64,000 nt of DNA from Actinobacillus seminis. GTDB taxonomy: Bacteria > Pseudomonadota > Gammaproteobacteria > Enterobacterales > Pasteurellaceae. The DNA lies in the NCBI RefSeq assembly GCF_002263215.1, contig NZ_NLFK01000002.1:62001-126000 (forward strand), in the 5' to 3' direction. Below the pieces are notes generated by a model. The model was not told the DNA's origin. It ran no database searches and saw nothing but the letters and a program-made list of their open reading frames with translations. Below are positions 8,830 to 9,872 of the stretch, in pieces. Numbering within the stretch: position 1 is the stretch's first letter; each line of letters starts with the position of its first letter. Both the position numbers and the translations under genes were made by a program.

Positions 8830-9069
8830 TTACTTCAATTTTTCGTTCAAAATTTCTTCGGTTTCTTGAATAAGCGTACTTGCAGAGCAATTTAAGCCAT
8901 TTGCTAATTTAAAAATAGTTGTGAGTGAAGGTTGCTGTTGCCCTAATTCTAACTTACTCACATAAATTCGTTGTATATCAGCCTCAAATCCAAGTTGCTC
9001 TTGCGTAAGCTCTTGAGCCTTTCTTCTTTGTCTAATAGCTTTACCAAATGCTTTAATAATTTCGTCCAA
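8830..9069 (-). CDS. XRE-family helix-turn-helix regulator
   Basis: A 79-residue DNA-binding protein made of one HTH_3/Cro-CI domain. The pattern TQEQLGFEADI followed by YVSKLELGQQQPS covers the recognition helices, near residues 22-50. There is no ligand or oligomerisation domain beyond it. The start codon is TTG at 9067-9069 with an AGG 7 nt upstream; an in-frame TGA lies just before and there is no internal Met, so no other start is available. It is divergent from a secreted-protein gene, with a perfect 24-bp palindrome between. By analogy with small controller proteins it probably represses or activates that promoter and its own. Confidence 0.85.
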   Translation of the reverse strand: MDEIIKAFGKAIRQRRKAQELTQEQLGFEADIQRIYVSKLELGQQQPSLTTIFKLANGLNCSASTLIQETEEILNEKLK

Positions 9070-9085
9070 AATTCAGCCTATTTTA

Positions 9086-9109
9086 AAATTCCTACAATTG
9101 TAGGAATTT
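9086..9109. promoter_or_regulatory. Perfect 24-bp palindrome, probable operator of the XRE regulator
   Basis: The 24 bases (half-site AAATTCCTACAA) are a perfect inverted repeat with no spacer. On the plus strand it contains TTGTAG (9098-9103), exactly 17 bp before a TAAAAT at 9121-9126. The palindrome therefore overlaps the -35 of the promoter reading into the secreted-protein gene. On the minus strand a TAAAAT at 9085-9080 touches its edge. Geometry is read directly; the binding protein is inferred. Confidence 0.7.
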
Positions 9110-9126
9110 CATCAGTATGCTAAAAT
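9098..9126 (+). promoter_or_regulatory. Promoter of the secreted-protein gene
   Basis: TTGTAG and TAAAAT separated by 17 bp, with TG one base before the -10 (extended -10 form, TGCTAAAAT). The -35 is inside the 24-bp palindrome. Confidence 0.6.
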
Positions 9127-9175
9127 TTAGTCTTCATATAGAAATATGAATTAACTTAAAATTGGAGTTTTAATG

Positions 9176-9553
9176 ATGAAATTTACAAGAAATCTATTAG
9201 TAATTACTACCTTATTACCTACATTCAGTACAGCATTTGCTCAATGCTATGGTTCAGATTCTTATCAAACTTGCTATGATAATAATACTGGAAACCAATA
9301 TAATGTTCGACGATACGGTAATAGCACCTATGTTGATGGATACAACTCAAATACTGGTTCTAATTGGTCTCAAACATCTAGAACCTACGGCAATACCACC
9401 TATCAAGATGGATATGATTCCAATGGAAACTCTTGGAATCAAACTATCCAACGTAACGGTAATCAAACAACATATTCAGGGACAGACTCTCAAGGAAATA
9501 GTTTCTATAAAACTTGTACAACTAACTACGACGGTTCTCAAAACTGTTATTAG
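9176..9553 (+). CDS. Small secreted Asn/Tyr/Gly-rich repeat protein, unknown function
   Basis: I do not recognise a family. The product is about 125 residues. A signal peptide (KFTRN, hydrophobic core, STAFA) probably cleaves before QCYGSD. The mature part has three imperfect repeats of about 23 residues with a pattern like RxYGNxTYxDGYxSNxGxxW, a beta-prone composition and four cysteines (CYG, CYD, CTT, CY) near the two ends, suggesting a disulphide-tied periplasmic or surface protein. ATG at 9173 is also possible; 9176 gives better spacing (8 nt) from GGAG at 9164-9167. It is divergent from an XRE regulator with a palindrome in the promoter. A second open frame overlapping it is a shadow. 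Confidence 0.7.
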   Translation: MKFTRNLLVITTLLPTFSTAFAQCYGSDSYQTCYDNNTGNQYNVRRYGNSTYVDGYNSNTGSNWSQTSRTYGNTTYQDGYDSNGNSWNQTIQRNGNQTTYSGTDSQGNSFYKTCTTNYDGSQNCY

Positions 9554-9872
9554 AAACTAACTCATTAAATTCCCTAGTGCTTACCTCTTAGGTTAAGCAT
9601 AGTATCACCCCCTGGCACGAAAACCTAACTTGCTCCAGCGGAGCAATATTATACCTAACCCACGGCGTAAGCCGTGGGCTATTCAGTTATCCGGAATTTC
9701 CAGATAACTTCTACAAATTAACCTAATTGTAATTTTGAAAGCGATTTTAACCGCTTGTAAGCCATTCCTACATTTTTCTATTTTGCGATCTCCATCGAAA
9801 AATCCCTCATTTCCATTCGACAATTCCCCTCCAAGCGGTTACATTTATCCAAAATATTGTAAGGAATAACTT
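9554..9872. other. Gap with twin hairpins before the RhuM gene
   Basis: Some 320 bp without a gene. Apart from the two hairpins listed separately (9630-9678) it is ordinary AT-rich sequence. A weak GGAATA ribosome site precedes the next gene. Confidence 0.6.
9630..9678. mobile_element. Twin stem-loops, possible IS200/IS605 end remnant
   Basis: TTGCTCC-AGC-GGAGCAA (9630-9646) and CCCACGGC-GTAA-GCCGTGGG (9659-9678) are perfect hairpins in tandem, each preceded by CCTAAC. Subterminal hairpins of this type are used by IS200/IS605 transposases, and a TnpA relic lies elsewhere in the window (48606-48760). No transposase sequence is next to these. The first hairpin could instead be a terminator, though no T-run follows. 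Confidence 0.4.

Follow-up and report, generated by a model that had tools for sequence, protein, structure and literature searches.

The question raised by this locus is whether a small XRE-type regulator and the small exported protein that it faces, here called NYG, form a unit of their own, or whether regulator and operator are a switch behind which the expressed gene may change. In the window, by which we mean the whole 64-kb stretch of DNA that was analysed, the regulator is surrounded by metH (recognised by eye), NYG, a RhuM-like gene and a DUF72 gene (Table 1), and the GC content is 34% for regulator and NYG, 47% for metH and 42% for the window itself. A profile search gave the regulator an HTH_3 match with an E-value of 3.1e-14, and its structure, predicted alone, reached a pLDDT of 65.7. 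The best match of the RhuM-like gene to its defence family ends at residue 159 and is followed by a second piece, which suggests an internal deletion, and its N-terminal part has a weak antirepressor match (phrog_463, 8e-6). This was the sole phage-like gene found between 4000 and 15000, where three reading frames were scanned with PHROGs, and no prophage was recognisable around NYG between metH and the DUF72 gene. Immediately 3' of NYG, positions 9554-9700 are strongly structured, with several hairpins (z -4.16); a search of the genome for second copies of 9560-9870 gave none and all Rfam matches stayed under the gathering score. The stretch may perhaps be a terminator, or else what is left of the end of an insertion sequence.

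Table 1. Coordinates of the features of the locus, with the related locus of a second genus in the last line.
Feature	Position	Strand	Remarks
XRE/HTH_3 regulator, 79 aa, TTG start, controller-protein-like	8830-9069	-	Open reading frame and profiles
Perfect 24-bp palindrome AAATTCCTACAATTGTAGGAATTT, predicted operator	9086-9109	none	Core TCCTnC..TTGTAnGA kept in five genomes
Candidate regulator promoter, TTTAGC-16-TACAAT	9097-9124	-	Weak, putative
Candidate cargo promoter, TTGTAG-17-TAAAAT, TGn extension (TGC)	9098-9126	+	-35 inside palindrome
Inverted repeat TTCATAT-agaa-ATATGAA	9133-9150	+	At predicted 5' end of cargo mRNA
NYG, 126-aa exported protein, counted from first ATG	9173-9553	+	Open reading frame, signal peptide by eye
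RhuM-like gene, 230 aa	9873-10565		PADLOC candidate defence family PDC-S05, 3.7e-82, profile 342
Regulator orthologue and lipoprotein-like FHBP_C gene of G115, sharing operator and promoter	L073:7936-9717		

The original prediction, made from the sequence of the window, described an HTH-only regulator with a TTG start that diverges from a secreted protein, a perfect 24-bp palindrome between the two genes, and an overlap of this palindrome with the -35 of an extended -10 promoter of 17-bp spacing. Both reading frames and the palindrome were confirmed, and the promoter is present, with hexamers at 9098-9103 and 9121-9126 separated by 17 bases; its -35 is weak, since TTGTAG agrees with TTGACA at three of six bases, and a promoter scanner needing four did not report it. 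The palindrome is the only perfect one with arms of at least 8 in the 64 kb; in windows simulated by a first-order Markov model, arms of 12 arise once per 40 windows (0.025 per window) and arms of 8 at 1.55 per window. Its 16-base core occurs, with up to 2 mismatches, at a single place in the 2.37-Mb genome. The distance from the palindrome is 16 bases to the start codon of the regulator and 63 bp to NYG. The candidate cargo promoter gains weight from the recurrence of its hexamer and 17-base spacing in two other genomes, G011 of the same genus and G115 of another genus. The candidate promoter of the regulator, found in the window and in G011 and absent in G115, has its -10 (9097-9102) within the palindrome and its -35 (9119-9124) on the cargo -10; because the two promoters nearly superimpose, there would be room for one polymerase only. 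The inverted repeat of the leader is kept in G011 and G115 (with one pair changed to G-U) and not in G058 and G065, two further carriers of the regulator, and as an RNA hairpin its fold was not above that of shuffled sequences (z -1.03). An alignment of the five intergenic regions showed that all of them share the core of the palindrome and, for the cargo promoter, the -35 and -10 regions with their 17-base spacing.

Among solved structures, the best relatives of the regulator by sequence are C.AhdI (9.3e-8) and C.BclI (1.8e-7), and PADLOC returned HTH_VI (4.2e-13) and Control_protein (4.6e-12). The regulator resembles the controllers of restriction-modification (R-M) systems (the class of C.AhdI, C.BclI and C.Esp1396I) in its size, in belonging to the HTH_3 family and in the place of its predicted operator, immediately ahead of the gene that encodes it. 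According to the accessible parts of PMC3115060, those controllers have two GACT..AGTC operators, whereas here we find one palindrome of 24 bp and of other sequence; the same parts indicate that other C-protein classes use other motifs. A further difference is the divergent exported cargo in place of an adjacent R-M gene: none lies beside the regulator in the window, and by eye none was recognised beside its orthologues in G011 or G115. The C-box half GACTATAGTCCGTCGAC, with up to 1 mismatch, is absent from the genome of the window and present in one of 398 genomes of the phylum. In view of the single palindrome of other sequence and the lack of an adjacent R-M gene, the regulator is not classed as an R-M controller; it probably works like one. 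C-boxes do stand upstream of distant relatives of the regulator in L101 (51% identity), L103 (45%) and L102, with a variant in L092 (49%). As to phage repressors, the HTH matches of the regulator remain under the curated cut-offs for RstR (45.6 of 80 bits) and DicA (37.9 of 101), and the only phage-type neighbour seen is the RhuM-like gene.

The distribution of the three elements was surveyed in 140 Pasteurellaceae genomes, including that of the window. The regulator was matched at E <= 1e-8 in seven of them, namely the window's genome, four with close orthologues (65-89% identity), and G118 and G137, which at 36-39% identity were left out of the close orthologues; beyond the family, a search of the order (394 genomes) and of the class (369 genomes) at E <= 1e-14 brought in just five more regulators, all distant. 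NYG was found at E <= 0.01 in five family genomes, four after removal of the spurious G048 (E 0.004, 46 residues within a 3301-aa reading frame). When as many as 3 mismatches were allowed, the operator pattern gave 31 distinct sites in 30/140 genomes, two sites matched on both strands being entered once, and 30 of these loci were fetched with about 1.5 kb on either side. All four sites with at most one mismatch adjoin a regulator orthologue (G000, G011, G065 and G115), as does one of three with 2 mismatches (G058; not G038 or G111) and none of the 23 fetched with 3; the last are largely noise, since a reversed control pattern also matches (in 7/140 genomes). The palindrome thus belongs with the regulator and not with NYG.

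These counts bear directly on the view that regulator, palindrome and NYG are co-inherited as a dedicated module, functional only jointly. It draws on the adjacency of the two divergent genes and their common operator, and it is made highly improbable by the fact that, with NYG in four and the regulator in five of the 140 genomes, only the window's genome has both. Moreover, in 33 loci with NYG homologues (29 distinct places, given the overlaps L002/L008/L077, L003/L078 and L004/L076, many of them just 2-3 kb long), the 18-base operator core was not found with up to 4 mismatches allowed, and there was one weak regulator-like match, of 29% identity, in L009. In viral contigs the 42-base operator-promoter pattern is absent and the 18-base core is present in 11. 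Relatives of the regulator on mobile elements amount to 1 phage record and 173 plasmid records, the latter all below 60% identity, and by eye the palindrome of the window was not seen upstream of those at five plasmid loci and L100-L104 (six plasmid loci opened). Of what had been predicted, the likeness to controller-protein circuits fits, as seen with C.AhdI, C.BclI and the Control_protein models, and regulator and palindrome do go together, but a conserved unit of regulator and secreted protein was not borne out: regulator and operator stand next to other cargo elsewhere, and NYG homologues occur without regulator and palindrome, an outcome that the prediction itself had named as counting against it. 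The suggestion of an accessory island survives in part, NYG and the RhuM-like gene being absent from the collinear G011, where the regulator is nevertheless present.

In this sister species a different gene stands behind the switch. The window and G011 share 87% DNA identity over 483 aligned positions, from 8701 (inside metH, where the query started) to 9181, and the identity stops nine bases into NYG; the order metH-regulator-DUF72 is unchanged, with NYG and the RhuM-like gene missing. The cargo of G011 is instead a 110-aa protein with a hydrophobic, membrane-type start judged by eye and no match in Pfam or NCBIfam; its gene begins about 215 bp past the operator, so that its link to the cargo promoter is loose. 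G115 has in this place a protein of 479 aa, which carries a lipobox (by eye) together with the C-terminal domain of the factor-H-binding protein, FHBP (FHBP_C, 4.1e-22). This recalls the Slam-dependent surface lipoproteins and FHBP; its slam_lipo match of 46.3 bits lies under the cut-off of 80, and NYG, in contrast, has no match to these families. Three intact regulators therefore face three different genes, the products of which look exported or membrane-bound; as a sample for cargo exchange, three regulators with three neighbours is small. Set side by side, the sequences establish that regulator, predicted operator and candidate promoter were conserved and the cargo was replaced.

The regulator match of the two remaining genomes, G058 and G065, is interrupted by stop codons in frame, and no reading frame of at least 60 aa was found downstream in the cargo direction. 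Such stop codons would suit an alternative in which NYG was inserted by chance next to the remnant of a former defence or restriction system, without any joint function, as would the nuclease-like candidate defence genes (PDC-S26 models, PADLOC) that adjoin the distant relatives with a C-box (L102) or its variant (L092). We nonetheless hold this improbable: between the window and G011 the regulator is under strong purifying selection (dN 0.05, dS 0.60), three species from two genera retain the cargo promoter and leader, and the two genomes that lack a following reading frame have a broken regulator.

The reading that we prefer, and whose chances we consider evenly balanced, is that of an orphan controller-type autorepressor that, from a shared operator, silences an exported protein acquired from the phage and plasmid pool. 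A dimer of the regulator would bind the 24-bp palindrome and so cover the divergent cargo promoter at its -35 and, likely, the regulator's own promoter at its -10, one site thus silencing both genes. The cargo would be expressed once the level of the regulator drops, whether by dilution, proteolysis or an antirepressor. What is inherited as a unit would be the regulator with its operator, together with the cargo promoter and the 5' leader, with the gene behind the leader being exchanged, and in the window this cargo would be NYG, an exported beta-repeat protein capable of forming disulphides. We infer binding, repression and the inducing signal; the repression of both genes is drawn from position only, the operator lying over the cargo -35 and the candidate regulator -10. 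C proteins are able to activate as well as repress, and promoters with a weak -35 and an extended -10 often need help. With its weak -35 and TGn-extended -10, and with C.AhdI and C.BclI among the relatives of the regulator, the locus could thus be read in the opposite sense, the regulator recruiting polymerase to the extended -10 promoter and activating the cargo as C proteins do at low concentration. We judge this unlikely, because the centre of the operator lies about 36 bases ahead of the predicted start, on the -35 itself, which favours occlusion, and because there is a single palindrome, in comparison with the pair of operators that the accessible parts of PMC3115060 describe for the C-box switch.

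The cargo of the window resisted assignment, as anticipated: nothing under E 0.06 was obtained in Pfam, NCBIfam, PHROGs or PADLOC (NCBIfam and PADLOC being run on the NYG protein of the window only), and the best match among PDB sequences had an E-value of 0.12. The four cysteines are at positions 25, 34, 115 and 125, and the repeats are three units of 23 residues, each a predicted beta-hairpin; a shift of 23 gives 20 identities, and the best shift was reached by 8 of 2000 shuffles. The AlphaFold model is confident (pLDDT 84.8) and all-beta, with ten strands in hairpins. Foldseek found no match to it at E <= 0.001 in PDB or BFVD, and the best VIA-align hit, with a Z of 8.8, was 3msw, of unknown function, followed by VDAC and porins, with designed barrels also listed; with no trusted structural relative from either program, an assignment based on fold was dropped. 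Compared with the copy in Pasteurellaceae bacterium LFhippo2, dN is 0.19 and dS was not computable and is read as saturated; the amino-acid sequence is therefore probably constrained. We infer that NYG is exported and most likely acts at the periplasm or the cell surface.

Relatives of NYG, with 26-77% identity, occur in two of 50,697 phage records (CBW1004C-Prop1 and Acidovorax phage AP1), in 12 of 72,556 plasmid records (7 from Cereibacter sphaeroides) and in 9 viral contigs, some near-identical, as well as in one contig of Moraxella cuniculi. In CBW1004C-Prop1 the relative adjoins a tail-fibre gene on the opposite strand, and in AP1 it lies directly behind the repressor. Tail-fibre genes stand on the strand opposite to NYG relatives in L015, L022 and L026, those of L015 and L022 being confirmed with PHROGs, and a CI-type repressor (phrog_4, 2.1e-38) lies directly ahead in L016. 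Placement beside tail-fibre or repressor genes is usual for accessory phage genes. Among the family genomes, G133 has a weak match to a terminase small subunit (8.7e-4) near the NYG relative, G122 and G049 have unnamed PHROG matches, and all three share neighbour genes, by eye, with the viral contig L028; on these weak or unnamed matches and the gene sharing seen by eye, the NYG neighbours in the three genomes look prophage-like. No clear phage neighbour was found for the Moraxella copy, and the gene that follows it (L009:3415-3927) encodes a surface-adhesin protein E domain (Adhesin_E, 6.4e-12). In two viral contigs (L022:3059-3361 and L026:4936-5238), a 100-aa gene, lipoprotein-like by eye, lies behind NYG in the same direction and is possibly its partner. 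Altogether, NYG most likely represents, judging from these neighbourhoods, a family of accessory genes of the 'moron' type in phages, prophage-like loci and plasmids. Moron or lysogenic-conversion genes are a general concept, with SieA of P22 as a named case; like them, the NYG relatives are small exported proteins by tail-fibre or CI-type repressor genes, but the NYG copy of the window is not inside a recognisable prophage. We know of no phenotype for the NYG family.

More distant relatives of NYG point to a different context. Across 398 genomes of the phylum, a search with a profile gave a match at E <= 1e-6 in 11: this genome, nine of the family f12, which we take to be Pseudomonadaceae, and the partial G275, which was left out of this Pseudomonas-like group (45 positions, E 3.8e-7). 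The motif GTTATANTATAAC, presumably the Zur box, has two perfect sites in each of eight of the nine f12 loci (L062-L068 and L070), and no perfect site was found in the ninth or in G275. According to Pfam, the NYG relative is flanked by amidase and cobW genes in L066 and by a gene of DksA type in L070; by eye, L065, L067 and L068 have similar flanking genes and L062-L064 partly other neighbours. The accessible parts of PMC4542158, PMC6103462 and PMC11761036 describe a zinc-starvation cluster of Pseudomonas to which AmiA, DksA2 and a protein of COG0523 belong; Zur sites lie there between PA5536 and PA5537. By this resemblance the distant relatives are probably zinc-starvation genes, and the f12 relative probably an undescribed exported protein of zinc starvation. 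The identity of the Pseudomonas-like gene with PA5537 was rejected, the latter being termed a glutamine synthetase in those same parts, as was Zur control of the NYG gene in the window, where GTTATANTATAAC is not found with up to 1 mismatch.

A pairing of a controller with an exported repeat protein was also noticed in a distant gammaproteobacterium (L106:110-715), where a C-box controller-type XRE gene diverges from a small exported protein with two 22-residue repeats, about 3 kb from a phage-type integrase gene. At E <= 0.001 this protein matched nothing among plasmids and phages, and homology with NYG was rejected (BLASTP E 2.2); the pair hints that such pairing arose more than once. No description of a controller paired with an exported cargo was found in the literature searched, which included the accessible parts of PMC5449769 and PMC3115060, and NYG, being nameless, is unsearchable there. 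Beyond the autorepressor that we propose for the window, it is conceivable, if doubtful, that we are dealing with a plug-in expression locus, in which an orphan controller with fixed operator, promoter and leader would receive exchanged genes for exported or surface proteins, each gaining a ready-made autorepressed switch. If true, the controller proteins of restriction-modification would double as portable switches controlling surface proteins, and a route to surface variation would be open where the surface gene is swapped while promoter and leader remain. As for NYG, its family, whose members lie on alpha-, beta- and gammaproteobacterial phages and plasmids and which has chromosomal relatives linked to Zur boxes, provides a testable entry into an exported protein family without assigned function.
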